DNA of 27,666 bases from a virus. The stretch spans positions 1 to 27,666 of the IMG/VR virus record IMGVR_UViG_3300049216_000192; one strand, written 5' to 3'. A model generated the notes under the pieces. The model was given only the letters and a program-made list of their open reading frames with translations. It did not search any database and was not told where the DNA came from. Positions 10,339 to 26,828 of this stretch are shown here, in pieces (positions within the stretch are counted from its first letter, which is position 1; every line of letters begins with the position of its first letter). The translations under genes and the position numbers were made by a program.

Positions 10339-10367
10339 ATACTACTACGGTTTTGGCCGGTTGTCAA
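10339..10367 (-). promoter_or_regulatory. Sigma70-type promoter of the tmRNA gene
   Basis: On the minus strand a perfect TTGACA (10367-10362) is followed after exactly 17 bases by TAGTAT (10344-10339). It lies about 35-40 bases upstream of the mature tmRNA 5' end, leaving a short leader for RNase P to remove. The TTGACA overlaps the stop codon of the preceding gene. Confidence 0.75.
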
Positions 10368-10636
10368 CCGCCGATGTAGTTTTTCTGCCCCGGTATCCGC
10401 AACTTCTCCCATTTCCCCTTCTCTGGGGCACTCACGAAGTCCCGGATGTCCTTGTACCCTGCACCCTGGATGACCTCCAGAGCCTTTTTCACGTCCCCGT
10501 CGAAGCGATTCAGGACTTGCTGCCGCTTCGTGTCAAAAGTCATGGCGTCCCGGTTGTAGCCGGTCGTGCTTGGCTCCAGGGCACTCTCGCTCACTTCTCG
10601 TTCTTTCAAGAACTCTGCAAATCGTTTGAATTCCAT
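10364..10636 (-). CDS. Small protein with the F-x-E-[WFY]-L N-terminal tag, 90 aa
   Basis: The ATG at 10636 is preceded by GGGGAG; a TTG twelve bases upstream in frame is unlikely. It begins MEFKRFAEFLKEREVSES, one of five window proteins opening with an F-x-E-[WFY]-L motif and a nearby Glu. The rest is charged and mostly helical (DTKRQQVLNRFDGDVKKALEVIQGAGY), ending in a Lys/Gly-rich tail. If the motif acts like the T4 capsid-targeting peptide, this would be an internal head protein cut after LKE or near it. It is divergent from the tagged gene at 10704. No enzymatic domain is visible. Confidence 0.65.
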   Translation of the reverse strand: MEFKRFAEFLKEREVSESALEPSTTGYNRDAMTFDTKRQQVLNRFDGDVKKALEVIQGAGYKDIRDFVSAPEKGKWEKLRIPGQKNYIGG

Positions 10637-10703
10637 ATCGCTCCCCAAGGGAATGTCTTCACGTCAATATATACCTACCGAGAACCGAATTTCGAGGTTG
10701 AAA
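10637..10703. promoter_or_regulatory. Divergent intergenic region between two tagged genes
   Basis: This 67-base gap must hold promoters for both divergent genes. It contains CAATATATACC (10665-10675), which on the minus strand reads as a TATATT -10-like element. No good -35 is visible. GAGG before the ATG at 10704 is the ribosome site for the rightward gene. Confidence 0.35.
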
Positions 10704-11288
10704 ATGCAGTTCACTGAATGGCTACACCTGTGGGAGAACCAAGAAGTATCCGGCGGCATCACATCGGCCACCGGCAACCCTGGCACGGCCAGTTACAACG
10801 TGTCTACACCCAAAGGTAGTCGAAAGTTCATCGTTCTGTTCGCCAAGAACAACGACGAACTGCACATCAACTTTCTCGGAAGCGTCAACGACGAAGAAGG
10901 TATCGACAAAAGCGTCAACGTCGGAAGCATCCTGCAAAACTTCGTCGGCGAACTCTGCCAGAAGTTCGGCCCGTTCGATCCGGCGAAGATCAGCTACAAG
11001 CCGTCCGGCGGAACCAGGACGGGATGGACCTCGGACGGGTCGGCGGTTCGTGACAGGCTGTTCCAAAGATATATACGCCAACTCCAGCAGAATATGCCGC
11101 CCATGTGTTCGTTCGCCCCGAAAAGGGCTGAATACCCAAGCGGTCCCGGACGGTCGGGCCGAGTCCCGATCTCAGCCACGTCGAGAATGCCCGCCAAGAG
11201 CAAATTCGACAACCACCCGCTCCGGGCCGCATTCAAAGGTAATGATGAAGAGTTTGCGTCCTTTTTTGGCCTTGGAAGCACTACATAA
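10704..11288 (+). CDS. Hypothetical protein with the F-x-E-[WFY]-L N-terminal tag, 194 aa
   Basis: The start is ATG 10704, with GAGG seven bases upstream. The frame is open farther left, but that part overlaps the divergent gene and lacks a ribosome site. It begins MQFTEWLHLWENQEVSGG, the shared tag with LWE as a possible cleavage-like triplet. The middle has beta-rich KFIVLFAKNNDELHINFLG and a helical NVGSILQNFVGELCQKFG. The C-terminus is basic and Pro/Ser-rich (RSGRVPISATSRMPAKSKF), which would suit DNA contact. I do not recognise a family. It is followed after 17 bases by the PspC-domain gene. Confidence 0.68.
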   Translation: MQFTEWLHLWENQEVSGGITSATGNPGTASYNVSTPKGSRKFIVLFAKNNDELHINFLGSVNDEEGIDKSVNVGSILQNFVGELCQKFGPFDPAKISYKPSGGTRTGWTSDGSAVRDRLFQRYIRQLQQNMPPMCSFAPKRAEYPSGPGRSGRVPISATSRMPAKSKFDNHPLRAAFKGNDEEFASFFGLGSTT

Positions 11289-11305
11289 CGCACAAGGAGG
11301 ATTCC

Positions 11306-11476
11306 ATGAAGAGAACCCAAGACCGTGTAATCGCTGGTGTCTGTGGAGGCATTGCCAAGGATATGGGTGTTGATCCAGTGCTTGTTCGACTGGCGTTCGT
11401 ACTCGCCTTCCTGCTCTTCGGCGTTGGCCCACTTATTTACCTCATTCTGTGGGTAATAATGGGCAATGAAGCGTAA
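11306..11476 (+). CDS. PspC-domain membrane microprotein, 56 aa
   Basis: A 56-residue protein consisting only of a PspC domain. It begins KRTQDRVIAGVCGGIAKDM, followed by GVDPVLVRLAFVLAFLLFGVG and PLIYLILWVIMGNEA, matching the family consensus throughout, including the GVCGGIA turn and one or two membrane-embedded helices. AAGGAGG lies five bases before the ATG, the strongest ribosome site in this region. PspC proteins act in envelope-stress (phage shock) responses in bacteria; full-length PspC is about twice this size, while many stand-alone domains are this short. It sits between two tagged putative virion genes on the same strand. It could protect or modulate the inner membrane during infection. 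Confidence 0.88.
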   Translation: MKRTQDRVIAGVCGGIAKDMGVDPVLVRLAFVLAFLLFGVGPLIYLILWVIMGNEA

Positions 11477-11497
11477 ATAACCCAAATGGAGACGAAT

Positions 11498-12601
11498 ATG
11501 GCCCACAAATCATTTCAGGAATACCTCGATAACAAGTCGAAGATGTCCAACACCGGCAAAGTCCAGCAGATCGCTGACTACACCGGCCCGAAAGCCGCTG
11601 CGCCCGGAAAAGAAAAGAAACACAAAGACGCCGGTGGCGAGGGGCAAAAGGGAACACCGAAGCCTTACGCCGGTGGAACCAACGCCGCCGACCCCAACAA
11701 GGGCAAGCTGGGCGACGGTTTCGCCAAGAAGGGCGACAAGGCTCTCGAATACACGCCGGGCAAAAAGACCCCGGCCACCAAGAGCAACGATCCTTCCGGC
11801 GTCCCCGGTGGCAAGAGCGTAGCCACTTGGCCGAAGACGAAGACTCAGGAGTGGATTGACCGCACCAAGGAAATGTCCCTGGCGGAATTCACCAAGGCGA
11901 TGCAGAAGCACGCCACCAAGGGTCTGGACGAATGCGCCTGCCAGAACGGAGACGTTCTGGAATCCGTCAAGACCGCCGTTGCACTCGCCAAAGCGAACAC
12001 CAGCGTCATGAACTCCCTGGTCCGTGAAATGAAGCGGAGCGGGACGTTCGGCAAGCTGGTCGCCGAGATGTTGAAGCACGAAGAAACCTACGGGGTCATC
12101 GCTCGCTTCATGGAACACGACGAGAAGTACGCCCGCCGTCTCGTTCGGGCCATGAACGAAATGGTCGGCCCACCGGCCCACAAAGACGACATCGACGAAG
12201 ACGATCCTTCCAAGCCACCGCACCCGTCCGATCACCACGGCTCCGACGATGACGATCCGATGAGCATGGGCGACGACGACATGGGTGATGACATGGGCAT
12301 GGGCGGCGATGACGACGACATGGGCATGGGTGGAGACGACGACGGAATGGGTGGGGATGACATGGGCGGCGACGATATGGGCATGGGTGGAGACGACGAC
12401 GGAATGGGCGACCCTTCGATGGGACCGCACGGTCACGGCGGCGACAAGGATTCCGACATCGCTCCGGGCAGCAAGATCATGCCGACCAAGAAAAAGAAGC
12501 CGAAGGCTCACCACCACCTGATGAGTGCCCTGAAGGATAGCCCGATGGGGCAGGACATGGGCGGAATGGGTGGCATGGGCGGCGGCGTCGGCCCGGTATA
12601 A
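11498..12601 (+). CDS. Putative internal virion protein with tag and Asp/Met/Gly-rich tail, 367 aa
   Basis: ATG 11498 has GGAG six bases upstream; ATG 11486 in the same frame has no site. The protein begins MAHKSFQEYLDNKSK, a variant of the shared F-x-E-[WFY]-L tag. Residues 15-130 are Lys/Gly/Pro-rich and probably disordered. Residues about 130-230 are helical (SLAEFTKAMQKHATKG, VREMKRSGTFGKLVAEML, KYARRLVRAMNEM) with a CAC pair. From about 235 the chain is Asp/Met/Gly-rich (repeats of GDDDMGMGG), then Lys/His-rich, and ends MGGMGGMGGGVGPV. There is no catalytic motif. A scaffold, an internal head protein or an acidic DNA-mimicking protein are all possible. A terminator follows. Confidence 0.65.
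   Translation: MAHKSFQEYLDNKSKMSNTGKVQQIADYTGPKAAAPGKEKKHKDAGGEGQKGTPKPYAGGTNAADPNKGKLGDGFAKKGDKALEYTPGKKTPATKSNDPSGVPGGKSVATWPKTKTQEWIDRTKEMSLAEFTKAMQKHATKGLDECACQNGDVLESVKTAVALAKANTSVMNSLVREMKRSGTFGKLVAEMLKHEETYGVIARFMEHDEKYARRLVRAMNEMVGPPAHKDDIDEDDPSKPPHPSDHHGSDDDDPMSMGDDDMGDDMGMGGDDDDMGMGGDDDGMGGDDMGGDDMGMGGDDDGMGDPSMGPHGHGGDKDSDIAPGSKIMPTKKKKPKAHHHLMSALKDSPMGQDMGGMGGMGGGVGPV
12265..12420 (+). repeat. Internal Asp/Met/Gly codon repeats
   Basis: A low-complexity coding stretch built from GAC/GAT, ATG and GGC/GGT codons. A unit of about 32 bases encoding MGMGGDDDGMG occurs nearly identically at 12320-12351 and 12377-12408, with shorter derivatives around them. This pattern suggests growth by slippage or unequal exchange. 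Confidence 0.75.
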
Positions 12602-12606
12602 TACTG

Positions 12607-12692
12607 ACAGTAAACTCCTCTCGCCTCTGATACATGCGCACTTGAGGGGTCTTTTGGGAACAGCCCGCCATATGGCGGGCTGTTTTCGTTTG
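12607..12692 (+). terminator. Intrinsic terminator after the Asp/Met-rich gene, possibly tandem
   Basis: The main element is a perfect palindrome, CAGCCCGCCATATGGCGGGCTG (12661-12682 with minimal loop), followed by TTTTCGTTTG. A weaker hairpin just before it (ACTCCTC near 12614 with GAGGGGT near 12645, then CTTTT) may be a first terminator. From here to the next gene (12693-12733) I see only AT-rich sequence with CTATATACC. Confidence 0.8.
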
Positions 12693-12747
12693 TAGCTACC
12701 TCCCCTATATACCTGTAGCCCTAAGTCATACATGGAGGTATGCAAAA

Positions 12748-13194
12748 ATTGAGATTATAGATCAGATGATGGACCATCTGAAAAACTTCGTTGAAAAGCC
12801 GAGTGCCGCTTTCAACAACTTGCCGGTTTGTCCATTCGCAAAAAAGGCAAGGAACTCAGGGAAGATCGAGTTTTTCGTACACTCACTGGTGCTAAGAGCG
12901 CCCCTGTACGAACGGATAGAACAGTTCAACGCCCAGGACTTTTACGAGACGCTGTGGCTGATTCACCCGAACTGCATCATCAACTCCTACGAGACGGACA
13001 AGATATGCGACGAATTGAGTGATAAGTACGGGCCGGACTTGCAGTTCTTTTCGGGCCACCCGGAATCGAACTTCCAGATGAACGGCATTTACACCCGACG
13101 GGAGCCGTACCCGAACATCATCGTCCAGAAGACTTCCTTGTTGATTAAGAAGGAAGCCAAACTGAAAGGGACTCGGTACTACGACCAGAAGTAA
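12748..13194 (+). CDS. CPFAK-motif phage protein, about 142-148 aa
   Basis: The first ATG in frame is 12766, but it has no ribosome site at a normal distance. A GGAGG at 12734-12738 lies nine bases before an in-frame ATT at 12748, so an ATT start giving six extra residues is possible. The protein contains NNLPVCPFAKKARNSGKIEFFV near its N-terminus and then a helical and beta mixture ending LLIKKEAKLKGTRYYDQK. The CPFAKKA motif seems familiar from uncharacterised phage proteins, but I know no function. It is followed by a terminator shared with the convergent LeuRS gene. Confidence 0.7.
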   Translation: MEIIDQMMDHLKNFVEKPSAAFNNLPVCPFAKKARNSGKIEFFVHSLVLRAPLYERIEQFNAQDFYETLWLIHPNCIINSYETDKICDELSDKYGPDLQFFSGHPESNFQMNGIYTRREPYPNIIVQKTSLLIKKEAKLKGTRYYDQK

Positions 13195-13197
13195 AAG

Positions 13198-13219
13198 AAG
13201 CCCGGCGAAAGCCGGGCTT
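13198..13219. terminator. Bidirectional intrinsic terminator
   Basis: AAGCCCGGC (13198-13206), loop GAAA, GCCGGGCTT (13211-13219). A T-rich run follows on the plus strand, and TTCTTTTAC follows on the minus strand. It lies between two convergent genes and probably serves both. Confidence 0.85.
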
Positions 13220-13225
13220 TGTCGT

Positions 13226-15073
13226 TTAGTCGTCGATGGTCCGCTTCACGACGAAGTTGATAATCTTGTTCGGAACCTGGATCGTCTTGGTGATCTCCAA
13301 CGTATCCGTCAACGCCTTCACTTCGGGATACTCCAGCACGTCGTCCAGATCGTCGTCGCCCATCTGTTCCACTGTGAGCCGCTTCTTGCCGTTCACCTGG
13401 ATCACGATGGTGAGCGTCCGGGGAGCGTCGAGGGCGATGCGGGCCGGGAACGGGTACTGGTGAATGCTCCCGTCGTGGTCCTTACTCCACAGTTCTTCCG
13501 TCCGGTGCGGGCAGATCGGGGCCAGCATCAGCACCAGACATTCCTTGGCGTTTTGCCAGGACAGGCCGGGCGTCGTCTGGTAGTTCTCCAGCATCACGTT
13601 GCGGAACTGCATCAGCCAGGAGATCACCGTGTTGAATTTGAGCGCCTTGTAGTCGTCGTGAACCTTCTGGCACGTTCGGGCCAGTGCCCTGGTCACGGCA
13701 CAGTTCGGGTCCAGACGATCCGAATTCAACATGGGCCGGGTGTAGATGTCTTCCACGTCGTTCAGGAAGCGGTCGATGCCCGCCATGTGGACGTTCCAGG
13801 GACCGCCCTGGTCCCACGGGCCGATGAACATCAGGGACGCCCGAACCACGTCGGCCCCGTAATCTTCAATCAACTCGTCGGGGTCCATGACGTTGCCACG
13901 GGACTTCGACATCTTCTGGTGGTCGGCCCCCAGGATCATGCCCTGGTTGAACACTTTCACGGCTGGCTCGCCGAAGTGTGAAACCTCTCCCGCCAGTACG
14001 CCACAGTCGGACATCGCCTTCGTGAAGAAGCGGAAGTACAGCAGGTGCATACATGCGTGTTCGATGCCGCCCGTGTAGATGTCCACGGGCATCCACTTCT
14101 TCACCAACTCCGGGTCGAACGGCATCTCGTACCTGTCTTCACACAGGTAGGCGTACTGATACCACGAGGAGCAGAAGAAGGTGTCCAGGGTGTCGGTTTC
14201 CCGTTCGGCGGGGTGGCCGCACTTGGGGCAGAAGCACTTCTTGAAGTCCGGGTGTCGCTTCAGCGGGCTTTCGCCGTTGGGAAGGAATTCAGCGTTTTCC
14301 GGCAACTCGACGGGCAGGCCGTAGATCGGCACGGGGACGGTCCCGCACTCGGCACAGTAGATGATGGGAATGGGCGTCCCCCACATCCGCTGGCGGGACA
14401 CGTTCCAATCCTTCAAGTTTTCGATCCACTCCCGCTGCATTTTGACGACCTTATCCGACAGGCCGCTGTGGTCGAAGTTCAACAACTGGTCTTTATACTT
14501 GGTGATCCTCAGCTTCCAGGACGGAATCGCCTTCTCGACGACCGTGGCGGTGCATCGCTCACACTGGCCGTTGACGATTTGTTCCTTGGCGATGGTGGTC
14601 TGGCACTGCGGGCAGAAGTCCACGGGAACGTCGTCTCGGTAGGCAAGATCGTTCTCGTAGAACTTCAGGAACAACCACTGGCTCCACTTGTAGTAATTGG
14701 TGTCACACGTCTTCAGGGTGTGTTTCCACGAGAACATGCACCCCATCGTCTTCAACTGAGTGGTCATCCGGGCGATGTTGTCTTCCGTCCACTTGGCGGG
14801 CTGGAAGCCGTGCTTGATGGCAGCGTTCTCGGCGGGCATCCCGAAGGCGTCGAAACCCATTGGGAAGAACACATTGAAGCCGTGCATCCGCTGGAAACGG
14901 GCGAAGGCGTCAGCCGGGGTGATGGCGTACCAGTGGCCGATGTGGAGGTTGCCGGACGGGTACGGGAACATGGTGAGGGCGTAGTAGCTCGGCCCGTCGG
15001 CGTGCAGGTTCACGTCGTACAGGCCGCTTGCTTGCCACTTGTTCTGCCACTTCTGGTCGATTTCTCGGCTCAT
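13226..15073 (-). CDS. leuS: Leucyl-tRNA synthetase lacking the CP1 editing domain
   Basis: A 615-aa class I synthetase; bacterial LeuRS is usually around 860 aa. It has the HIGH motif in FPYPSGNLHIGHW (44-47), GFDAFGMPAENAAI, a CPQC...CERC zinc pair (154-174), WGTPIPIIYC, DTLDTFFCSSWYQYAYL, GGIEHACMHLLYFRFF, KMSKSRGNV (387-395) and a C-terminal VQVNGKKRLTVEQ domain. In normal LeuRS about 180-200 residues of CP1 editing domain lie between the MQRNWIG-like segment and the SRQRYWG-like segment. Here MQREWIENLKDWNVSRQRMWG runs straight through (212-232), so the editing site is deleted. It charges tRNA-Leu in the cytoplasm, without post-transfer editing. GGAG precedes the ATG. Confidence 0.95.
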   Translation of the reverse strand: MSREIDQKWQNKWQASGLYDVNLHADGPSYYALTMFPYPSGNLHIGHWYAITPADAFARFQRMHGFNVFFPMGFDAFGMPAENAAIKHGFQPAKWTEDNIARMTTQLKTMGCMFSWKHTLKTCDTNYYKWSQWLFLKFYENDLAYRDDVPVDFCPQCQTTIAKEQIVNGQCERCTATVVEKAIPSWKLRITKYKDQLLNFDHSGLSDKVVKMQREWIENLKDWNVSRQRMWGTPIPIIYCAECGTVPVPIYGLPVELPENAEFLPNGESPLKRHPDFKKCFCPKCGHPAERETDTLDTFFCSSWYQYAYLCEDRYEMPFDPELVKKWMPVDIYTGGIEHACMHLLYFRFFTKAMSDCGVLAGEVSHFGEPAVKVFNQGMILGADHQKMSKSRGNVMDPDELIEDYGADVVRASLMFIGPWDQGGPWNVHMAGIDRFLNDVEDIYTRPMLNSDRLDPNCAVTRALARTCQKVHDDYKALKFNTVISWLMQFRNVMLENYQTTPGLSWQNAKECLVLMLAPICPHRTEELWSKDHDGSIHQYPFPARIALDAPRTLTIVIQVNGKKRLTVEQMGDDDLDDVLEYPEVKALTDTLEITKTIQVPNKIINFVVKRTIDD

Positions 15074-15137: not shown

Positions 15138-15359
15138 TCAACCTACGACAATCACTTCGGATTCCGTCTCGATCCAGACGGTGGCCCCGCAACTGAGCGG
15201 GCAATCTGGACGGTAGATCACCCGGCACGGGCCGTTGATGACGACCTCGCTGCCGTAGCGATTGTCCTTGTAGGTTTTGGTCGTCAGGACAGGTTCCCGC
15301 TTGCCCGTCTTGCGATTACTTTTGATCTTGTGCTGATTGACATGGATGATGGTTTTCAT
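15138..15359 (-). CDS. Conserved small phage protein, 73 aa
   Basis: It begins MKTIIHVNQHKIKSNRKTG and contains LTTKTYKDNRYGSEVVINGP, CRVIYRPDCPLSCGATVWIE and a short terminal strand. This HVNQH...NRK...KTYK...GP.RV.YRPD.PLSCGA.VWIETE pattern is one I associate with a widespread uncharacterised family in phages and bacteria. The fold is probably all-beta. Its ATG overlaps the stop of the polymerase PHP gene (ATGA), so the two are coupled. A terminator follows. Function unknown. Confidence 0.72.
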   Translation of the reverse strand: MKTIIHVNQHKIKSNRKTGKREPVLTTKTYKDNRYGSEVVINGPCRVIYRPDCPLSCGATVWIETESEVIVVG

Positions 15360-16795
15360 GCTGCGAACGCCTCACCTGGGGGCAACGGGTCGATGTTACG
15401 GAAGTCCAACACGATGGACCGACCGCCACGGGCTTCGCTCATGAAGCGACTGAACAGCAGCCCTTCGTACACCGGGTCCACGTCGGTAATTCCCAAGCAG
15501 TAGCAAACCAGCGCACCCACGGCGGAACCCCGCCCAGGGCCGACGGCTTCGGTTCCGTCGCCCCAACCCAGCAGGAGCGGACTGATGCGGCGGGCTTCGT
15601 CCGTCATCATCTTCTGGAGGAGGAAATACGACGAGAATCCCTTGCGGCAGATCAGGCTGTACTCTTCCTTGATGCGGTCGAGGTATTCACGGGTCTTCGG
15701 CAGCCCACGCTGCTTGAAGCCCAACATCACGAGTTCTTTCAGCTTTTCGTCGGCGTCGGGGAGGACGGGCAGTTTGAGGGAGCGGTCGAGTTTGACGCCC
15801 TTGGCCTTCTCGCAAATCCAGACGGTGTTCTTCTTCGCCTCGCAGAAGAGTTCGTAGGGGATGACGTTGCTGTAATCCTTCAGCCACTTCTCGTTCAACT
15901 CTTCTTCGCTCTTCATCCACAGGTTGGCGTCCTGCAACTCGAAGAAGTCCTTCATGGCGTCTTCGGCCATCGCCTTCTCGATGTCCTGGATGGTCCTGCC
16001 GGTCTGGACCATCAACATCAGGCGTTGGAACTGAGAGTCTTCTTGTTTGCAGTAGTGGCAGTCGTTGGTGAGGATGAGCCGCAGGCCGTACTTCTGACTG
16101 GCTTTGACGATGAAGGCGTCGTAGGCGGATTGTTTCTTGAAGTCGAGCAGCATCATTTCCAGGAAGTAATGGTCCTTCCCAAACATCTTGACGTACCGCT
16201 CGATCATGGCGAAGCCGTTCTCTTCGGCGACTTCCAGGCCGAGCGGGAGGCCACGGTCGAAGGCTTTGCCGACCTCGCTGGCGTAGCAGCAGGACGTGAA
16301 GAACAGACCTTCTTTGTGCTTCAGGAGTTGTTCGTAGTTGACACGGGGGCGGCGGTAGAAGCCTTTCGTCCAGCCCCAGGAGGACAACCGGACGAGGTTC
16401 TTGTAGCCCGTCTCGTTGTAGGCGATGGCGAGAAGGTGCGCACCGTACTGGCGGATTTCCTTCAGGTCTTCTTCGCCAAGACCCTTCATGAACTTCTGCA
16501 TATCGTCCGGGTCGTTCAACTCCGGTTGCAGGCGGTTGACGTAGAGTTCGCAGGCGAAGATGGGACTGAGGGTGTCCTTGCCGTGTTTCTTACAGATATT
16601 TTCGCAGGCTTTGATTTGACGGGGGACCACGCCCATCATGCCGTGGTCGCTTACCGTAAGGAACTTCTGGTTGATCTGAGGGGCACGGATGGCGTATTCC
16701 TCGACCATCCCGTAGCCGTCGAGGAGGCTGAAGTCCGTGTGCAGGTGAAGGTGTTCAAATCCGACTATTTCCATCTTGCGATCTGTATTGCTCAT
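15356..16795 (-). CDS. dnaE: DNA polymerase III alpha (DnaE), PHP-containing N-terminal half
   Basis: A 479-aa protein covering the PHP domain and the start of the palm. The PHP metal residues look intact: HLHLHTDFSLLDG (15-27), TVSDHGMMG, FACELYV, HLLAIAYNETGYKNL and LTNDCHYCKQED. It continues through EYLDRIKEEYSLICRKG and SSYFLLQKMM to VGPGRGSAVGALVCYCLGITDVDP (about 418-441), then RFMSEARGGRSIVLDFRN where a complete DnaE would have its PDxDxD active site, and stops. The catalytic half is encoded at 4532-7288. The two must pair to form a working polymerase; the PHP part may add proofreading or pyrophosphatase activity. It overlaps the membrane-protein gene upstream by 41 bases. Confidence 0.9.
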   Translation of the reverse strand: MSNTDRKMEIVGFEHLHLHTDFSLLDGYGMVEEYAIRAPQINQKFLTVSDHGMMGVVPRQIKACENICKKHGKDTLSPIFACELYVNRLQPELNDPDDMQKFMKGLGEEDLKEIRQYGAHLLAIAYNETGYKNLVRLSSWGWTKGFYRRPRVNYEQLLKHKEGLFFTSCCYASEVGKAFDRGLPLGLEVAEENGFAMIERYVKMFGKDHYFLEMMLLDFKKQSAYDAFIVKASQKYGLRLILTNDCHYCKQEDSQFQRLMLMVQTGRTIQDIEKAMAEDAMKDFFELQDANLWMKSEEELNEKWLKDYSNVIPYELFCEAKKNTVWICEKAKGVKLDRSLKLPVLPDADEKLKELVMLGFKQRGLPKTREYLDRIKEEYSLICRKGFSSYFLLQKMMTDEARRISPLLLGWGDGTEAVGPGRGSAVGALVCYCLGITDVDPVYEGLLFSRFMSEARGGRSIVLDFRNIDPLPPGEAFAA

Positions 16796-17375: not shown

Positions 17376-17378
17376 GTG

Positions 17379-18813: not shown

Positions 18814-20412
18814 TTACCAGTGCTTAATGTGTTCTTTCCTGCTCGTGACTTCGACATCCTCGTCCGAGTTGGTTCCGTAGCATCCGTAGATGGCTTCGTC
18901 GCCGTCGTCGTCCTTGGTGGCAAGGTACACGTCGTTGTTCCAGAGGAACCGCAGTGAGGTAAGAACTTCTTTGACGTAGGGCTGGTAGATCGCCCGTCCG
19001 TCCCATTCGTGCTGGAGCATCATGTAGCCCTTGCCACGGTAGTTCGGCTCCGTCAGGTTGATGACGGGCAGACCGCCGTTCAGGTGGCGCTGCATCAGGC
19101 TCCGCTTGATGTCCTTGAAGTCCCGGTGTTCCATCCGGTACTCGCCGTTCGGGTAGTGCTTCCAGTGGAAGTATTCCTGCTGGCGGCAGAAGTCCTCGGT
19201 GAAGAATTCGTTGAGGAACGTCAGGTCGTCGTAATACTTCCTGACCTCGAACAACTTCTCCTTGCCCAGCCCCAGGTTCTTGTCCCACTTCTCCTTGGCC
19301 CGGATGTCGGTGCATTCCTCCCACTCCGTACCGAACTGGCCCTTGTTCCACCGCTCCTCAATGTCGAGCATCATGTAGAAGCCCAACTTGTAGGGGTTCA
19401 TGGAGTATTTGCCGCCCAGCACGCCCATCTTGTGGTCGGCGTACTCGATGATGCCAACGTCGTGGGACTTCTGGCCCAAGCTGACGTAGCCCTGGCGGGC
19501 CATGATAACGTGGTCGGTGAGGCTCGCCCACCCTTCGTTCATGACCTTCGTTTGCCGCTGCGGGAAGAAGTACAAACTTTCTTCGTACAGCATGGAAACG
19601 ATGTCCTGCTGCCACGGCTTGAGCGGGGCGTTCTCCCGGATGAACCCAAGGATGTCCTTGGTCGGGTCGCTGAACAGCCCGATCTCGTCGGCGATGTCGG
19701 CCTTGGAGATGCGGCTGTTCTCCTCACCACGGAATTGCTTCGTGTTGAGGAACGGCTCCATGTACATCCGCTCTTTGTTGACCGTCAACCGGCGGGGCTG
19801 GCGGTACTTCCGTTGGTCCACCATGTTGCGATCTTTGATGATCTTTTCCGTCCACGCCTTCGACCCGTCGATCAAGGTTTCGATGCGCAGAACGTGGTCG
19901 ATGAACTCGATGACCCGTTCCTTGCCCCAGCGACTCATGTACCGCCGGATGCGAGTACCGTGGTTCGCCATCTTGTTCAACATCGTCGTGTCGGTCGCAC
20001 TGAAGTGGATGTTGTTCTTGAAGAAGTCGTTGTGCCCGGTGGCGTGCGCAACGACCGTCAAGTTGTCCACCAGCGTGTTGGAACTCAAGAGCCACTGGTA
20101 GCACGGGTTGGTGTTAATCACCATCTCGTAAATCTTGTGCATCCCGTATTCGTAGCCACGCTGCAACTCTTCGTATTCCATACCCCACTGCCAGTGCGGG
20201 TATCGAACCGGGAAACCGCCGTAGGCGGCGATCTCGGAAATCTCGTCGTAAGTGAGAAGCTGAACGACGGTCGGGTAAAAATCCAGACCCCAATCTCGGC
20301 ACGCCTGGAGGATGATGGGGACGTTATCCCTCATCTCCTTCGGGAGTTGAACACCGGGTACGGTATTGTCGCCGAGCAGGATGCCCGACCCGTGCATGAA
20401 CTTACTGCCCAT
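18814..20412 (-). CDS. spoVR: SpoVR family protein
   Basis: A 532-aa protein with family hallmarks along its whole length: LQACRDWGLDFYPTVVQLL, FPVRYPHWQWGMEYEEL, YEMVINTNPCYQWLL, VVAHATGHNDFFKNNIHFS, DPTKDILGFIRENAPLKPWQ, QRQTKVMNEGWASLTDH and MNPYKLGFYMMLDIEERW. E. coli YcgB and B. subtilis SpoVR are similar in length. In B. subtilis SpoVR affects spore cortex formation; its biochemistry is unsettled. Its ATG overlaps the DUF444 stop (TAATG), and in bacteria these genes occur with prkA, as here. It ends in a Lys/His/Trp tail. Two invariant-looking His-rich blocks (HATGHND, HWKHYPNGEYR) could bind metal. Confidence 0.95.
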   Translation of the reverse strand: MGSKFMHGSGILLGDNTVPGVQLPKEMRDNVPIILQACRDWGLDFYPTVVQLLTYDEISEIAAYGGFPVRYPHWQWGMEYEELQRGYEYGMHKIYEMVINTNPCYQWLLSSNTLVDNLTVVAHATGHNDFFKNNIHFSATDTTMLNKMANHGTRIRRYMSRWGKERVIEFIDHVLRIETLIDGSKAWTEKIIKDRNMVDQRKYRQPRRLTVNKERMYMEPFLNTKQFRGEENSRISKADIADEIGLFSDPTKDILGFIRENAPLKPWQQDIVSMLYEESLYFFPQRQTKVMNEGWASLTDHVIMARQGYVSLGQKSHDVGIIEYADHKMGVLGGKYSMNPYKLGFYMMLDIEERWNKGQFGTEWEECTDIRAKEKWDKNLGLGKEKLFEVRKYYDDLTFLNEFFTEDFCRQQEYFHWKHYPNGEYRMEHRDFKDIKRSLMQRHLNGGLPVINLTEPNYRGKGYMMLQHEWDGRAIYQPYVKEVLTSLRFLWNNDVYLATKDDDGDEAIYGCYGTNSDEDVEVTSRKEHIKHW

Positions 20413-21632
20413 TACTCGTCCCCCTTGTCTTCCCTGTCGGACTTCTTGCTTCCGAGCAGTTGTTTGATGGCTTTCAACACCTGTTCGTTACGCTGCTCGT
20501 CGGTCAACGTCGGGGCGCTCCACATGCCAGCGGCGGGCTTGGTTTCGGCCCCGATGGAGACGGTCCTGACGGCATCCTTGTCCAGCGTGCCGTCCTTGAT
20601 GGCGGAATCGACATGCTGCTTCAGGCTGCCGTCGTAGTTGTAGGCGAGAATCTGCGTGATCCCCACGAAGTTGGCGACGTGCGGCGGGAACTCTTCCTTC
20701 AGGCTGTTGATGAACACCTGATTGTCGTCGCCCCAATTGTCGCCGTCCGAGAAGTAAAACACATAGATGTTCCACTTCTGGGGCGGGAACCGATTGTCGA
20801 ACTGCTTCGTGATGAACTTCAGCGCACTGGAGCAAGTCGTGCCGCCGCCGAACCGATACTTGTAGAATTTCTCTTCGTCCACTTCCATCGCAGCGGTATC
20901 GTGCCAGACGTACATGCGTTCGACACGGGTGTAGAACCGGCGAATCCACACGTCGATCCACCACGCCATATCAGAAACGATTTCACATTTCTGAGCGTCC
21001 ATCGACCCCGACCCGTCACGGGCGTAGATGATGAGGGCGTTGCTGGACGGGATGCGGATTTCGTTGTACTGGCGGAACCGCTTGTCCCCCGGCCACGGCG
21101 TAATGATGCGGCGGGGTTCCGGGCAACCGGGAACCTTGTGGAGTTCTTCCAACGTCCCCATGCTGGCCTGCCGCTTGATGGCCTGGAGGAACGTGCGGCG
21201 GTTGTGTCGGAGCGATTCGGGGCCGACGAGACTGATGTTGTTGTACTTGATCTTGATGTCTTCAAACGTCTCGTTCGGCTTCGGCTTCAGGTTCGGCAAC
21301 GCAAGGTCGTCGGCCATAAACTTGAGGACTTCTTCAAGGTCCAAGTTGATGGTGATACCTTCGGACGACTCCTGCCCCGCCCCCTGGCCCGGCTCCGGGT
21401 CTTTCCCGATCACGTCGCCGGGCTTACCGGGACCACGACCGACACCTTCCTCTTTGTCGCCGTAGACGATGTGAGGGATGTCAATTTTGGGGATCGAGAT
21501 CGAAATCTTGCCGTTCTTTCCACGGTTGCGGAATATCTGGCCGGACTTGATGAACTTCTTCAAGGCTTTGCGGATTTTGCCAGAGACAACATCCCTAAAG
21601 TCCTTGTGGTCTTCTTCAATACGCCTTGGCAT
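20412..21632 (-). CDS. yeaH: DUF444 / YeaH family VWA protein
   Basis: A 406-aa member of the YeaH/YhbH family. The basic N-terminal half has FRDVVSGKIRKALKKFIKSG, ISIPKIDIPHIVYG and a Gly/Pro/Glu-rich linker (VGRGPGKPGDVIG). The C-terminal half is a von Willebrand A domain with an intact DxSxS metal site in ARDGSGSMD (204-212), later RFGGGTTCSSALKF and IYVFYFSDGDNWGDDN. In bacteria it is encoded with prkA and spoVR and is thought to be a substrate or partner of the PrkA kinase, which is inferred for this copy too. It is coupled to SpoVR (TAATG) and starts nine bases after the 71-aa gene. Confidence 0.95.
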   Translation of the reverse strand: MPRRIEEDHKDFRDVVSGKIRKALKKFIKSGQIFRNRGKNGKISISIPKIDIPHIVYGDKEEGVGRGPGKPGDVIGKDPEPGQGAGQESSEGITINLDLEEVLKFMADDLALPNLKPKPNETFEDIKIKYNNISLVGPESLRHNRRTFLQAIKRQASMGTLEELHKVPGCPEPRRIITPWPGDKRFRQYNEIRIPSSNALIIYARDGSGSMDAQKCEIVSDMAWWIDVWIRRFYTRVERMYVWHDTAAMEVDEEKFYKYRFGGGTTCSSALKFITKQFDNRFPPQKWNIYVFYFSDGDNWGDDNQVFINSLKEEFPPHVANFVGITQILAYNYDGSLKQHVDSAIKDGTLDKDAVRTVSIGAETKPAAGMWSAPTLTDEQRNEQVLKAIKQLLGSKKSDREDKGDE

Positions 21633-21641
21633 TGTTTCCCC

Positions 21642-21857
21642 TTACGGCTTGATGAAAGTTAAGCCGAACTCGTAGTCTTCCGTGTCGGCGGCGCAGTCTT
21701 TGATCTTCATGCCCATGAACAGGGCGGTTTGTTCGTCATTGAGGCTGTTGATGAGATCGGCGAGTGTGCCGTCCTCACCCCAAGTGTCCATTGCGATCTC
21801 GTCGATTTCGGCGAAGAGACGCCTGTACTTTGCCTCATCCAACCAGTGATTTTTCAT
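21642..21857 (-). CDS. Small acidic protein, 71 aa, between PrkA and YeaH genes
   Basis: It begins MKNHWLDEAKYRRLFAEID, continues TWGEDGTLADLINSLNDEQTALFMG and ends EDYEFGLTFIKP. It is acidic and mostly helical. AAGGTGA precedes the ATG and follows directly on the T-run of the terminator after prkA, so its translation depends on readthrough or an unseen promoter. It is the first gene of the YeaH-SpoVR-protease part. Unknown family. Confidence 0.65.
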   Translation of the reverse strand: MKNHWLDEAKYRRLFAEIDEIAMDTWGEDGTLADLINSLNDEQTALFMGMKIKDCAADTEDYEFGLTFIKP

Positions 21858-21867
21858 TTGTTCACCT

Positions 21868-21916
21868 TAAAAAAAGGGGGCGGAACGGACCTTCCGGTCT
21901 GTCGCCCGCCCCCTTC
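21868..21916 (-). terminator. Intrinsic terminator inside the PrkA-YeaH-SpoVR operon
   Basis: On the minus strand AAGGGGGCGG pairs with CCGCCCCCTT across a loop that itself holds ACCGGAAGGT, and a run of seven T follows. It stands between the prkA stop (21929) and the next start (21857), so it should cut most transcripts after prkA and lower expression of the downstream genes. Confidence 0.85.
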
Positions 21917-21928
21917 CCTCAGACGGGA

Positions 21929-24031
21929 TTACTCTTCGTCGGCGAGGTCGCCACGGGCGAAGATGCCGCCCACGAAATCCAACACGTCGGTGGCCGACCG
22001 CTCGTTGTACCCGTACTGCTTGATGAGACGGGTCTTCAGGGCGTCGATCTTCTCCTGGATGTCCTTATCGACAACCGTTGCCCCCGACACGTTGAGCGCA
22101 CTCAACTTGATCGTGTCCTTCACGTCCTCGAACAGCTTCATCTCCAAAGCCTTCTTCAGCTTCGGGTTGCTGTCCCACTTGAACTGCTTGTTCTTGTGGG
22201 CCAGATCGCCGATGAACGCTGCGATCTGGCGGCGGAAGTCGTCGGCCCCTTGGTTGGGGATTTCGATCTTCTCTTCCACCTGCCGCATCAGCCGCTCGTC
22301 GGGCTTGCGGTCCTGGCCCGTCACCTTGTCCCGCACCTTGGCCTTGTTGATGTAGGCCATCACGTTGTCGATGTAGTTGGTGCAGAGCCGGATGATGGCG
22401 TCCTCGTCGCCGACCAGTGCCTTCTGCACTTCGGCCTTGAGGATTTCCGTCAGCTTCTTCAGGGCCACGTCGATGCAGGTCATGTAGCGACCGACCTGAT
22501 CCTTGTTCGTCAGCAGCGACGAGTCCTGCAAACCCTCACGCAGTTCGTTCAGCACCATGAAGGCGTTGACGTAATCGTGGTTGTTGCTGAGGCAGTTCGA
22601 GAGCTTGTCCTGGATGTACCGGACGGACACGCCGAACATCATGCCTTCGTCGGTGTACTTGTCCTTCATCTCCTTCACCGCATCCTCGGTCCAGCCGGGG
22701 AGCAGCTTGCCGTTGTACAGTTCGGCCTTCTCGACCAGGGACAGCTTGCCGTCCTTGTCGTCCTGGAGCCGGGTCAGAACCGCCCACAGAGCGGCGATTT
22801 CGAGCGTGTGCGGGGCGACGTGCTGGCGCACCTTGCCCGGCCCGTAGTCCTTTTCGAGAATCTGAATCTCTTCGTCCCACTTGAGGGTGTAGGGGACGTT
22901 GATCTTCACCGTTCGGTCACGAAGGGCTTCCATGTACTGGTTGCTCTTCAGCTTCTCGAATTCCGGGTTGTTGGTGTGGGCGAAAATCGCCTCGTCGATC
23001 AACACCTGGGCGAACTTCTTCGGCTTGATGGACTGTTCCTGCGAAGCACCGAGCAAGTCGTAGAGGAACGCCTGATCCAACTTGAGGGCTTCGATGAACT
23101 CGATCATGCCACGGTTGCCGACGCAGAACTCGCCGTCGAAGTTGAAGGCACGGGCGTCGGAATCCGAACCGAACTTGGAGATCAACCCGAAGTTGATGTC
23201 GCCGGTCAGTTCCGTCGAGTCCTGGTTCTTCTCGTCCTTCGGCTGGAAGGTGGCGATGCCGCAGCGGTCCACTTCGCTGTACACCTTGCGGGTGACGACG
23301 ATGTGGTTCTTCAGCACGGCTTCGAGGTCGCCGTTGTTCCGCTTCAGCAGTTCGTTCATGAAGAACTTGCAGCGGGGGTTCAGTTCACCTTCCATCTTGA
23401 TGGTGTACTGTTCCTTCTTGTTTTCTTCCGTCACCTGATCCAGAAGAACGGCGTTCATCTCGGCGATGAACTGCTGGCGGATGTCGCCGGGGAGCAGCTT
23501 CAGCGGGTTCTCGTGCAGCGGGCACTCGTTTTCCGCATTGGTGTAGATGCCGTCGTCGCCCGTCGGGAGATTGACCCACCGGAACGAGTACCACGCACCG
23601 GCGTCGGTCAAGCTGTACTTTTCGAGCCGACGCTTGATGAGGCGGCAGATGGTGGACTTGGAGCTACCGACCGGGCCGTGCAGCAACAGAACACGACGTT
23701 CCGTACCGTAGTGACCCGCAGCACCCTTGATGAACTTCACCAGGGCGTCCTTGGTTTCCGCAAGGCCGATGATGGGAATGTCCGGGTCGTCGAAGAAGTT
23801 GTAGTGGGTGTACGTCTTCCGGTACTCCTCGAACTCCTCCGACCCGTCCTCCATAATCATGTCGAAAATCATCTGCCATGCGTTCCGACCCAACTTCGGG
23901 GTCTTCAGGCAGAGATCAAGGTACTCTGCCATGCTCATTTCTGCTGTCAAGGCTCGGAATTTGTTCTTGTCGAACAGTCCGGCCACTCTCTTCAGTTGGT
24001 TCATCTTTCCCTCCGTTGCGGATTCCATCAT
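21929..24031 (-). CDS. prkA: PrkA-type AAA+ serine protein kinase / protease
   Basis: A 700-aa PrkA protein; bacterial PrkA is about 630-645 aa. It has the N-terminal EMSMAEYLDLC box, FDDPDIPIIGLAETKDALVKF, Walker A GPVGSSKST (119-127), YTNAENECPLHENPLKLL, NRGMIEFIEALK, FAQVLIDEAIFAHTNNPEF, IKINVPYTLKW-like strand, and a helical C-terminal kinase-like region. PrkA from B. subtilis was first described as a Ser kinase and later reported as an ATP-dependent protease; in enteric bacteria it is called YeaG and acts in stationary phase with YeaH. AAGGGG precedes the ATG at 24031. A sigma70-like promoter and a terminator bracket it. Confidence 0.95.
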   Translation of the reverse strand: MMESATEGKMNQLKRVAGLFDKNKFRALTAEMSMAEYLDLCLKTPKLGRNAWQMIFDMIMEDGSEEFEEYRKTYTHYNFFDDPDIPIIGLAETKDALVKFIKGAAGHYGTERRVLLLHGPVGSSKSTICRLIKRRLEKYSLTDAGAWYSFRWVNLPTGDDGIYTNAENECPLHENPLKLLPGDIRQQFIAEMNAVLLDQVTEENKKEQYTIKMEGELNPRCKFFMNELLKRNNGDLEAVLKNHIVVTRKVYSEVDRCGIATFQPKDEKNQDSTELTGDINFGLISKFGSDSDARAFNFDGEFCVGNRGMIEFIEALKLDQAFLYDLLGASQEQSIKPKKFAQVLIDEAIFAHTNNPEFEKLKSNQYMEALRDRTVKINVPYTLKWDEEIQILEKDYGPGKVRQHVAPHTLEIAALWAVLTRLQDDKDGKLSLVEKAELYNGKLLPGWTEDAVKEMKDKYTDEGMMFGVSVRYIQDKLSNCLSNNHDYVNAFMVLNELREGLQDSSLLTNKDQVGRYMTCIDVALKKLTEILKAEVQKALVGDEDAIIRLCTNYIDNVMAYINKAKVRDKVTGQDRKPDERLMRQVEEKIEIPNQGADDFRRQIAAFIGDLAHKNKQFKWDSNPKLKKALEMKLFEDVKDTIKLSALNVSGATVVDKDIQEKIDALKTRLIKQYGYNERSATDVLDFVGGIFARGDLADEE

Positions 24032-24219
24032 ATTCCCCTTCGGGTATTGGGCCAGTTGTTCAGGGCAATATACCCTTGCCAGAAACCTCGATCAAGTGAA
24101 GGTGAAGAAATATCCTCAACAATCTCGGATATTTTTTCCAGATGCAGTGAAGGCCCGCTGGCATAAATATCGTAGGCTGCCCGATATGGGCAGACAAGAC
24201 TTAATTAGAAAGGAAAAAT
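24032..24219. promoter_or_regulatory. Divergent promoter region between prkA and the packaging ATPase
   Basis: On the minus strand TTGATC (24095-24090) and TATATT (24072-24067) are exactly 17 bases apart, a good sigma70-type promoter for prkA about 35 bases from its ATG. For the rightward gene I see only AT-rich sequence (TAAATAT near 24165), a small hairpin CTGCCC/GGGCAG (24177-24193) and the ribosome site AAAGGA before ATG 24220. No open frame of note lies here. Confidence 0.6.
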
Positions 24220-25020
24220 ATGCTGCTCAAACAAGCTGAAGAAATCATCAAGTGCGGGAAGAGTTTCCCCTACTTTTGCAAGCAATATGCGAAGATGACG
24301 CATCCGCTGAAGGGACTCATCCCGATGGAGTTGGAGGCGTGGCAACTGCGACTGGCCGATGCTTTGGAGGACAACCGATTCGTCATATCGACCAAATGGA
24401 GGCAGTCGGGAATATCCACCACCACCTTGATGTACTGTCTCTGGTTGTGCATGTTCCGAGAAAACCAGAAGATACTTTGGGTGTGTAAAACGCTCGCAGA
24501 GGCCGAAGATGTCGGACGGACACTTGCTCTGGTCATCAACTTCTTGCCGAGATGGATGCAACCGAGAATGGAAAGGAACAACAAACGGGAGAAGACGTTC
24601 GCCTCGACCGGCAGCGACATCCTCTTCCACTGCCCGCAGGCCGCTCGTGGGCGGGCCGTGACGCATCTGGTCATCGACGAAGCGGCCTACATCCCGAACA
24701 TGGAGTTTCACTGGAAGTGCATGTGGCCGTGTCTATCGACCGGCGGGAAGTGCTTCATTCAGTCAACGGTGAACCGGGGTGGCGACGGGTTGTGGTTCTC
24801 GGAACTGTACCTGGGGGCCATGAAGAACACGAACTGCTTCCACGTCTTCACGTCGAACTACAAGGAACACCCGATCTACCAGGACGACTCTTACGTCAAA
24901 GGCGTAAAAGAAGCCCTGGGATCAGAAGGCTGGTCCATCGAAATGGAGCAAGAACTATTTCACGGCCTAAAGTGCGGCGAAATTACAGAAGCCGGACCTT
25001 CGCCGACCGAGACTACTTAA
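24220..25020 (+). CDS. Large-terminase-type DNA packaging ATPase, ATPase domain only
   Basis: A 266-aa protein with the order of motifs of a phage large terminase ATPase domain. It begins with an adenine-pocket-like PMELEAWQLRLADAL and has a deviant Walker A KWRQSGISTTT (59-69; the usual Lys is Ile and an upstream Lys may act instead). Walker B is THLVIDEAAYI (148-158, DE 153-154), and the coupling motif is in FIQSTVN (179-185). Phage large terminases usually have 450-650 aa with a C-terminal RNase H-like nuclease. Here the chain ends at TEAGPSPTETT and the next gene is on the other strand, so the nuclease is missing or encoded elsewhere. It should power DNA translocation into the head. Confidence 0.8.
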   Translation: MLLKQAEEIIKCGKSFPYFCKQYAKMTHPLKGLIPMELEAWQLRLADALEDNRFVISTKWRQSGISTTTLMYCLWLCMFRENQKILWVCKTLAEAEDVGRTLALVINFLPRWMQPRMERNNKREKTFASTGSDILFHCPQAARGRAVTHLVIDEAAYIPNMEFHWKCMWPCLSTGGKCFIQSTVNRGGDGLWFSELYLGAMKNTNCFHVFTSNYKEHPIYQDDSYVKGVKEALGSEGWSIEMEQELFHGLKCGEITEAGPSPTETT

Positions 25021-25354
25021 CTTCACCGTAGTTGGCGTCGTTGTTGATGTCGGCTGCGATCTGCGCCGCACCGTGGTAGGGATCAGCGCCCATGTGGGAC
25101 GCCGCCTCTGCGTTGCGGCGGCAGTCCTGGGCCTCTTCCATCGTCTTACCGGCACGATAGCTGAAGTTGTCCCACTTGCTGGACTCCCTCGGATTCGAGA
25201 ACATGGCGTGCGGGGCACGAGTCATGATCTTCTTCTTCCGCTTGGAACCGCAGTCGGGACACTGTACGCCGGGGTATCGACCCTTCTCGTCGTACTTCGT
25301 GATCTCCTCCCACTGCTTCGTACACTTCTTGCATTCAAATTCGTACATTGGCAT
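25013..25354 (-). CDS. FmdB-like zinc-ribbon protein, 113 aa
   Basis: The N-terminus MPMYEFECKKCTKQWEEI and VQCPDCGSKRKKKI form the classic CxxC...CxxC zinc ribbon of FmdB/regulatory-protein type. The rest is disordered, with FSNPRESSKWDNFSY and an Ala/Asp-rich end. Such ribbons are common in phage genomes near packaging genes. Its stop overlaps the convergent ATPase stop by eight bases. The role is unknown, perhaps nucleic-acid binding or protein contact. Confidence 0.8.
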   Translation of the reverse strand: MPMYEFECKKCTKQWEEITKYDEKGRYPGVQCPDCGSKRKKKIMTRAPHAMFSNPRESSKWDNFSYRAGKTMEEAQDCRRNAEAASHMGADPYHGAAQIAADINNDANYGEVK

Positions 25355-25358
25355 GTCG

Positions 25359-25664
25359 TCACCCTTTTTCGTTGATTTTCTTCATGCGGCGATAAGCCTT
25401 TTCGATCATTCTTAGTTTTGTATCGACCGAATAGAACCGCCACCAGAACCCTTTTTCGAGCATTTTGATCGTCTTGAACATCAAACGATCATTCAACTCC
25501 CGATGAACTAGGCCCAATTGCATCTGCTGCATCTGCTGCTCTTCCTTGACAATCGAGCGATACTCTTCAGGCGTAATGCCTTCAGCTTCGTCGCCCTCGC
25601 CATCGAAGAAATTATCGACATCCTCTCGATAGTCTTCGTTGTCATCGTAGTCGAATCTTCTCAT
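25359..25664 (-). CDS. Hypothetical charged protein, 101 aa
   Basis: A strongly acidic N-terminus (RRFDYDDNEDYREDVDNFF) is followed by a Gln/Met-rich helix (KEEQQMQQMQLGLVHRELN) and a basic helical C-terminus (MIEKAYRRMKKINEKG). AGAGGG precedes the ATG. The stop of the upstream 207-aa gene lies a base away, so they are co-translated. Unknown family. Confidence 0.65.
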   Translation of the reverse strand: MRRFDYDDNEDYREDVDNFFDGEGDEAEGITPEEYRSIVKEEQQMQQMQLGLVHRELNDRLMFKTIKMLEKGFWWRFYSVDTKLRMIEKAYRRMKKINEKG

Positions 25665-25665
25665 G

Positions 25666-26289
25666 TTACCCTCTCGATACAGTTTGGAATAAAAGGGAAA
25701 GCTGCTTCCACAACTTGTCTACCTTGACTTCATTGGAAGTCATTCCTCCCCTCCCAAAGCTGTGCTGGAAGGGAGAACTAGCCTTATTTATCCAGGAGGA
25801 TGTAACAAACTTTCCCCAGCCGTCTGGATATGACGCAAATGTAGAGATTTTGTCTTCCTTCACGTCGCAACACAGATCGGAGTCAACCGGCTCGGCTGAC
25901 GGGTCGCTCACGACCCACACTTTGTTGGACTTAACGAGGGGAGTCTTTTGGAAGAACTCTACGTCCTGGTCAGTGAAGCCCCTCAGCATCACGACTTCGG
26001 GTTCCACGACAATTAAAGGAGTAGGGAGGAATTTGTTGTCGATGCAAAAGCGGACCTGTTCTTCCTTGCTCATCGGCTGGTGGATGCGCATCTTCACCCG
26101 ACACTTCCTGGCCCAACTGAACATCTGCCAGTCGAACGGCTTCCGGTTGCACAGGATGCCCACCGGGGCGTCGGGCAGCATCTTGGAGAACGAGTACCAG
26201 GAGGCGAACGCCATCCAGTCGTGGTGCGGACTGTAATCGCAAACGATCAGCACGCTAATGCCGTCGCCGGTCGATGTGATTTTCTTCAT
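25666..26289 (-). CDS. Hypothetical protein, 207 aa
   Basis: It begins with a Rossmann-like strand and turn, GISVLIVCDYSPHHDWMAFASW, and continues MLPDAPVGILCNR, WARKCRVKMRIHQ, LIVVEPEVVMLRG and KVWVVSDPS. The alternation of strands and helices suggests an alpha/beta fold, and a divergent glycosyltransferase-like protein is possible, but I cannot support an activity. Ribosome site is weak. It sits 12 bases after a tagged small gene. Confidence 0.6.
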   Translation of the reverse strand: MKKITSTGDGISVLIVCDYSPHHDWMAFASWYSFSKMLPDAPVGILCNRKPFDWQMFSWARKCRVKMRIHQPMSKEEQVRFCIDNKFLPTPLIVVEPEVVMLRGFTDQDVEFFQKTPLVKSNKVWVVSDPSAEPVDSDLCCDVKEDKISTFASYPDGWGKFVTSSWINKASSPFQHSFGRGGMTSNEVKVDKLWKQLSLLFQTVSRG

Positions 26290-26301
26290 GTTCTATCAGA
26301 G

Positions 26302-26505
26302 TTACTTTCGGGAAATAGTGCCGCTGGGGGCACGCTTGTCGGGCTTCCCGAAGATCGTGGGAAAGTGAACGCCCTGGTACGGATTCATCAGCTTGGCGGG
26401 ATTGGCCGGACGCACGCCACCCTTCGCCATGATCGAACCGGGGGCGGAAGTCTTCTGCACCAGGAATCGGCTCTCTTGCTCCTGCAACCACTCGGCGAAA
26501 GTCAT
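26302..26505 (-). CDS. Small protein with the F-x-E-[WFY]-L N-terminal tag, 67 aa
   Basis: ATG 26505 has GGGG about eight bases upstream; a GTG at 26511 is an alternative. It begins MTFAEWLQEQESRFLVQ, the shared tag with LQE as a possible cleavage-like triplet. The remainder is basic, rich in Pro/Gly/Lys and probably disordered (PGSIMAKGGVRPANPAKLM, IFGKPDKRAPSGTISRK). That composition would suit a small DNA-associated internal head protein. It overlaps or abuts the stop of another tagged gene, so two tagged proteins are made in tandem. Confidence 0.65.
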   Translation of the reverse strand: MTFAEWLQEQESRFLVQKTSAPGSIMAKGGVRPANPAKLMNPYQGVHFPTIFGKPDKRAPSGTISRK

Positions 26506-26507
26506 CG

Positions 26508-26828
26508 TCACATCCCCGGCTGCGGAGCAGCCGCAGCAGCGTCCATAGCGGTGGCCGCAGCACCCAGGTTCAACGGCTTGCCCTTCTGCTGGGCCTGCTT
26601 GTTGGCAGCCTGGAGCAGATCGGCCTGACCCTTCGGGTCGTTCAACAGGTCGGCGGGCTTCTGGCCCGGCTTCATCGGCATCTTCTGGAGGGCAGACGTG
26701 GTTGCGTCCTGAGCGGTTTGCTGGGCGGGCGTCAACTTGGTTTGCGGCGCAGCCGGACCCATTTCACGCAGGTAGAGCCATTCGGAAAATTTCTTGATTC
26801 GGTCCATGTCGGTATGTATCACCGCCAT
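26508..26828 (-). CDS. Small Ala/Gln-rich protein with the F-x-E-[WFY]-L N-terminal tag, about 99-106 aa
   Basis: Two starts are possible: ATG 26828, overlapping the HNH gene stop, or ATG 26807 giving MDRIKKFSEWLYLREMGP. The tag FSEWLYLRE is the clearest in the window, with LRE as a possible cleavage-like triplet. The rest is Ala/Gln/Pro/Lys-rich (LTPAQQTAQDATTSALQKM, LLQAANKQAQQKGKPLNL) and ends with an Ala-rich helix and PQPGM. Low complexity makes homology hard to judge. It is coupled with the tagged 67-aa gene downstream. Confidence 0.65.
   Translation of the reverse strand: MAVIHTDMDRIKKFSEWLYLREMGPAAPQTKLTPAQQTAQDATTSALQKMPMKPGQKPADLLNDPKGQADLLQAANKQAQQKGKPLNLGAAATAMDAAAAAPQPGM

Follow-up and report, generated by a model that had tools for sequence, protein, structure and literature searches.

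The 27,666-base IMG/VR virus fragment IMGVR_UViG_3300049216_000192 (hereafter the window, meaning the whole stretch analysed, in which 36 genes were counted) encodes five proteins that begin with a shared short peptide, F-x-E-[WFY]-L, and we consider it very likely that this tag represents a T4-type capsid-targeting system, greatly expanded and of a tryptophan type. Carrying this reading are the tag itself, its enrichment near protein starts, its conservation in orthologues, its coupling to a protease site, the charge of its carriers, the head genes of relatives and a set of late-promoter-like boxes, all obtained directly by computation.

The five open reading frames, singled out in a preliminary description of the window, were all also found by a hexamer-based gene caller, and each has F-x-E-[WFY]-L near its start, the motif beginning within residues 3–7 (aa, amino acids):

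10364–10636, minus strand: tagged protein 1, 90 aa, start MEFKRFAEFLKERE, no known family
10595–10621, minus strand: tag FAEFLKERE, residues 6–14 of protein 1, predicted cut after LKE (E12), relative MEFMRFAQFLKQRD
10704–11288, plus strand: tagged protein 2, 194 aa, start MQFTEWLHLWENQE, no known family
10710–10736, plus strand: tag FTEWLHLWE, residues 3–11 of protein 2, predicted cut after LWE (E11), relative MFKNWLHLMENQQ
11498–12601, plus strand: tagged protein 3, 367 aa, start MAHKSFQEYLDNKS, C-terminal half Gly/Met/Asp-rich
11513–11539, plus strand: tag FQEYLDNKS, residues 6–14 of protein 3, no adjoining hydrophobic-x-E, conserved as MAHKTFQEYLDTKS
26302–26505, minus strand: tagged protein 4, 67 aa, start MTFAEWLQEQE
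26473–26499, minus strand: tag FAEWLQEQE, residues 3–11 of protein 4, predicted cut after LQE (E9), relative MKTFAQFLAEKEE
26508–26807, minus strand: tagged protein 5, about 99 aa, start MDRIKKFSEWLYLRE; a longer call runs to 26828
26763–26789, minus strand: tag FSEWLYLRE, residues 7–15 of protein 5 if numbered from the 26807 ATG, predicted cut after LRE

For protein 5, the ATG at 26807, which places the tag from residue 7, is most likely the true start because a conserved relative begins MNRIKSFTEWLRVRE. The motif F.E[WFY]L lies within the first 15 positions of 5 of the 36 window genes, compared to 0.03 expected (p = 2.5e-9), and the reversed motif showed no enrichment in the same genes. Beyond their starts the five proteins are unrelated, as had been claimed: they have no Pfam or PHROG family in common, and searching PHROG and Pfam with them gave no usable match. 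Protein 3 belongs to a family (F1) of 14 loci, with the tag in 10 of 11 homologues. The only fold attempted, an AlphaFold2 prediction of protein 2 from a two-sequence input, had a predicted local distance difference test score (pLDDT) of 56, and the model was not usable.

The DNA polymerase and terminase of the window are 47% and 37% identical to those of LR756511.1, an uncultured phage of 595 kb whose record is unannotated, and the window's PrkA-like gene has matches in 80 IMG/VR contigs, the closest relative being IMG/VR 3300049215_000772 (G001, 134 kb), with 87% identity in PrkA. We called genes on six long relatives (G001–G004, G011 and LR756511; 1.7 Mb, 2609 genes) and used T4, KVP40, S-PM2, PA5oct, immuto and RaK2 as yardstick genomes; the gene calls are crude, and the records are metagenomic and mostly incomplete. 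The preliminary description had proposed a genome-wide count of the motif against chance, and in related contigs the motif was indeed far commoner than expected. Across the six relatives, F.[EDKQNRS][WFY][LIM] begins at residues 3–6 in 88 genes, compared to about 4 expected, with an interior position holding 0.93 motif starts as the baseline. Enrichment was significant in each long relative (observed/expected: G001 10/1.0, G002 23/3.4, G003 18/2.0, G004 17/2.2, G011 14/1.2, LR756511 23/7.4), and the reversed motif was not significant in any of them except marginally in LR756511 (11/5.7, p = 0.03), where a wider motif was found 81 times against 30 expected. Outside this group, KVP40 has a weaker tagged set, S-PM2 shows a hint at most, and PA5oct, immuto and RaK2 have no such set.

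When all IMG/VR contigs were scanned for exact matches to ATG-MNFKEW[L/F], 85 stretches were returned, many of them on large contigs, corresponding to 72 distinct proteins with 53 unrelated bodies; an F/W-swapped control of equal degeneracy returned 9 stretches in the same scan. The pattern F-x-E-[WFY]-L as first described is present but too narrow, since the motif allows E, D, K, Q or N at +2 and L, I or M, sometimes F, A or Y, at +4. Two further observations concern the other end of proteins. The motif is about two-fold commoner in the last 30 residues, a count that was not de-duplicated and from which we make no claim, and a 54-aa protein of G002 (84914–85078) has the motif at both ends (FKQWLQEN ... 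FNEWLKNK).

Clustering of the protein bodies with the tag left out gave 121 families, 116 of which have the tag near the start, with the consensus M-(K/N)-(T/S/N)-F-K-(E/D)-(W/F)-(L/I)-E-x-x-E. Counted from the F, tryptophan is enriched 35-fold at +3 and leucine 8.6-fold at +4, and glutamate is enriched at +5 and +8. The carriers include an SF2/SNF2-type helicase (947 aa, G011), a protein with PAP2 and an ArdC N-terminal anti-restriction domain (659 aa, G004), a DUF6036 nucleotidyltransferase, a poly(A)-polymerase head domain, a C39 peptidase, a GNAT acetyltransferase, a HAD phosphatase of RNA-repair type and, by inspection, an HD phosphohydrolase-like family. Small tagged proteins are basic, with a net charge per residue of +0.055 compared to -0.007 (p = 4.5e-7).

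The tag also outlasts the bodies that carry it. All five window orthologues in G001 keep it, with bodies diverged to 50–66% identity where measured. In other contigs it is present in 69 of 85 homologues of tagged bodies against a background of 10.5%, a count that leaves out the chance family HldE (65 homologues), and below 50% identity it is retained in 50 of 61 (82%); the failures lie mostly in families with an apparently fortuitous first match. This retention, together with the 116 families, their different recognised domains and lengths from about 45 to 1100 aa, speaks against the carriers being paralogues of one ancestor whose bodies diverged past recognition and left a functionless relic at the start; a few carriers are duplicates (F18), and we give that account the least credence of all. 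Within the tag, the F, E and L codons use several synonyms, so it is the peptide rather than the DNA that is conserved.

The preliminary description had proposed a likeness to T4, and the residue spacing here is that of the mapped T4 capsid-targeting sequence. For packaging in T4, the ten residues at the start of IPIII are enough; targeting depends on residues 4 and 7 of the targeting sequence, and processing on residues 8 and 10 (PMC9026906). The tag has the corresponding arrangement, with aromatics three positions apart at the equivalents of T4 residues 4 and 7 and a hydrophobic residue at the equivalent of residue 8. As a positive control with proteins known to be packaged, T4 was searched with a slightly broadened motif, whose matches included ipI, ipII, ipIII and gene 61.1. 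The likeness to the targeting sequences of IPI, IPII and IPIII described by Mullaney and Black extends to the N-terminal position, the length of about ten residues, the pattern aromatic-x-x-aromatic-[LI], the hydrophobic-x-E in about half of the families, the varied and often small and basic bodies, and a gp21/gp22/gp23 head of T4 type, here in the relatives.

The T4 head protease gp21 cuts after [LI]-x-E (PMC9026906). A tag that ends in such a site, with its position free to vary, should show glutamate at k+2 more often when position k is hydrophobic. This holds for E at +7 after a hydrophobic +5 residue (16/24 compared to 6/92, p = 2e-9) and for E at +8 after a hydrophobic +6 residue (16/29 compared to 19/87, p = 2e-3), and spacing-3 controls of the hydrophobic/E coupling were null. 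Between F+4 and F+8, [LIVMF]xE occurs in 58 of 116 families; the rates are 12% in the equivalent stretch of untagged proteins and 11% behind F-motif copies in protein interiors. In the IMG/VR scan set, which was found by a different route, hydrophobic-x-E occurs in 26 of 49. The claim that an LxE adjoins the tag stands for four of the five window proteins (LKE, LWE, LQE and LRE, with protein 3 lacking one) and extends to only about half of the tagged families. The clade's head protease has probably kept the hydrophobic-x-E preference of T4, because the short N-terminal arm of the clade's capsid proteins still terminates in [LIF]NE.

The head genes of the relatives are likewise of T4 type. A gp21-type head protease (PF03420) is present in G002, G011 and LR756511, and a gp23-type capsid protein (PF07068) in five records of relatives. 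In G002, G011 and LR756511 the gene order of core protein, protease, scaffold-like protein and capsid protein is the same as in T4, and the window terminase is also of T4 type. Adjoining the protease gene lies a protein of about 600 aa (G002 192279–194081, G011 5789–7585, LR756511 526639–528489), in the position of T4 gp67/gp68, and it begins with tag-like aromatics three apart (KLINYDVF, KLIEFDAF). LR756511 has a second, weaker Peptidase_S77 match at 242621–242989, perhaps a diverged protease paralogue of the kind reported for SPN3US.

Given the same spacing as the T4 targeting sequence and a T4-type head, capsid targeting is the most probable function of the tag. Short aromatic amphipathic peptides suit many docking roles, and the scaffold is a predicted partner, so that the tag could instead dock onto host RNA polymerase, a membrane, the tail or a degradation system and merely resemble the T4 signal. 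We regard this as quite improbable given the T4 spacing, the coupled gp21-type site, the gp21-type proteases of the clade, and the recovery of T4 internal proteins in the same search. Together with the gp23 homologues of the clade, these findings bear out the likeness first proposed.

Many tagged genes are also preceded by a T4-late-promoter-like box (TATAAATA, CTAAATA or CTATATA), which in the six long relatives ends mostly 4–7 nucleotides before the ATG with no Shine-Dalgarno sequence. This arrangement was found in 42 of 107 tagged and 98 of 2446 untagged genes (p = 1e-27). Exact TATAAATA at any distance upstream of tagged genes was not enriched; only the ATG-abutting box is. Among the box-bearing genes counted as untagged are several with broader forms of the tag (MNFKQWFQE, MEFREWF, MKTFKEFAA); others resemble tail-fibre-type virion proteins on inspection. 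The position of T4 late promoters would place the mRNA start at or next to the ATG. This suggests that the box-bearing tagged genes have late, leaderless mRNAs; the boxes support late expression, with the timing itself a prediction. A T4 gp55 query for a late sigma factor in the relatives gave no match, which is uninformative at such distance.

Could the conserved start be an RNA-level element, a 5' coding sequence that leaderless late mRNAs need, with the peptide as a by-product? The 42 box-bearing genes would suit such an element. The synonymous codon usage within the tag does not, nor do the 65 of 107 tagged genes, the window's five included, that lack an abutting box, or the roughly 100 untagged genes that have one, and we consider this explanation very improbable. 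Boxes of this kind are scarce in the GC-rich window, at 8 in 27.7 kb, and none of the five tagged genes there has the ATG-abutting arrangement. Three candidate elements were noted:

10664–10677, no strand assigned: near-palindromic AT box (TATATA) between the divergent tagged genes 1 and 2, candidate late promoter for both; in the relative, the gene 2 orthologue has it only a few nucleotides upstream of its ATG
11473–11479, plus strand: GTAAATA box, candidate late promoter 18 nucleotides before tagged gene 3, CATAAATA in a relative
24162–24169, plus strand: CATAAATA box 50 nucleotides upstream of the late gene for terminase (packaging), an element of the kind seen at the tagged genes

In the capsid-targeting model, the two aromatics three apart and the next hydrophobic residue would attach a newly made protein to the scaffold core as the prohead grows, and formation of the gp23 shell would enclose it. 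A gp21-type head protease would then cut after the hydrophobic-x-Glu at the end of the tag and free the body beside the DNA, and at infection those bodies able to pass the tail would enter the host with the genome. Across these huge T4-like phages, the tag has spread to 10–40 or more unrelated proteins per genome, sizeable enzymes included. Packaging of the tagged proteins appears well supported by this reasoning. We also infer scaffold binding, cleavage, presence in the virion, injection and late timing, with injection a further step beyond packaging.

Several points weigh against the model. The whole case rests on the sequences of uncultured phages, and the window fragment has no gp21, gp22 or gp23, which are known from the relatives only. 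Half of the families have no hydrophobic-x-E directly after the tag; cleavage is therefore not universal, or occurs at another site, and we do not claim it for every carrier. Chance matches make up about 10–15% of the strict-motif carrier list, HldE-like kinases and signal peptides among them. S-PM2, PA5oct, immuto and RaK2, which are T4-like without the expansion, show little or no enrichment, so the expansion is not a general T4-like trait.

The tag might lead to the prohead core and yet, for many carriers, serve scaffold-like proteins that are digested by the protease and expelled rather than injected as effectors. T4 offers a precedent in its core proteins gp67, gp68 and gp22, which are digested and then leave the head (PMC9026906), and some carriers here are of low complexity or very short (40–90 aa). 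Folded enzymes of about 120–950 aa (helicase, C39 peptidase, GNAT, HAD phosphatase, PAP2 with ArdC) would be odd as scaffold, however, and the carriers differ widely among relatives, as T4 internal proteins do; we judge this possibility unlikely, though not negligible.

On balance, we favour the view that these huge T4-like phages hold an arsenal of 10–40 or more injected proteins, each with one cleavable N-terminal tag and many expressed late from their own leaderless-mRNA promoters, recruited from unrelated sources such as helicase, anti-restriction, peptidase, RNA-repair and acetyltransferase domains. Compared to T4, the tagged set differs in scale (about four genes in T4 by this search), in a consensus whose second aromatic is Trp in over half of the families (Phe in T4), in cargo that includes many large enzymes, unlike the small basic internal proteins of T4, and in the late-promoter-like boxes abutting the ATG of many genes. 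If the view is right, injected phage effectors could be listed genome-wide from sequence alone. Proteins that enter the cell with phage DNA are normally known only through proteomics of cultured phages; a readable tag would turn their discovery into a sequence search in uncultured huge phages, with more than 100 candidates for roles in first-minute host takeover and counter-defence. The set would also be a natural collection of packaging tags, and a natural experiment in how unrelated genes gain a targeting peptide and a late promoter.

Other packaging systems are alike in part. The N-terminal signal of P1 DarB brings both reporters and an anti-restriction protein inside the head (PMC9024508), much as the tag would do for its carriers; unlike the tag, it was shown for one protein, with no shared short motif reported there, and in a different head. 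SPN3US and phiKZ inject many head proteins whose propeptides are removed by the head protease (PMC5694885). They too are giant phages with many head-packaged, protease-processed proteins, features that are predicted from sequence here, but their propeptides are mostly longer than 100 residues, with another cleavage motif and no common short tag, and the lineage is different. For T4 IPIII and IPI, the packaged protein counters host defences even without a tag (PMC9391042); the ArdC-type domain on one tagged protein here is only suggestive of such a role. We found no earlier description of the peptide, or of such tags in huge phages, in the open-licence literature, subscription papers aside.

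Some other genes of the window are of interest in their own right. The terminase gene (window 24220–25020; G001 29693–30490) encodes the ATPase half only, at 266 aa compared to 613 aa in LR756511, and a nuclease half was found neither in the window nor in the 134 kb of G001; the terminase may be split or reduced. By inspection of translations, DNA polymerase III alpha (DnaE) is encoded by two genes 8 kb apart (15356–16795 and 4532–7288) and appears to be split near the PDIDID catalytic motif. Also by inspection, a leucyl-tRNA-synthetase-like protein of 615 aa (13226–15073) is shorter than the cellular enzymes and probably lacks the editing domain, and adjacent genes named as SpoVR-like, YeaH-like and PrkA-like kinase (18814–24031) resemble a bacterial stress cluster. 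ARAGORN identified a transfer-messenger RNA gene at 9949–10303, with the tag peptide GKSDLAMAA.

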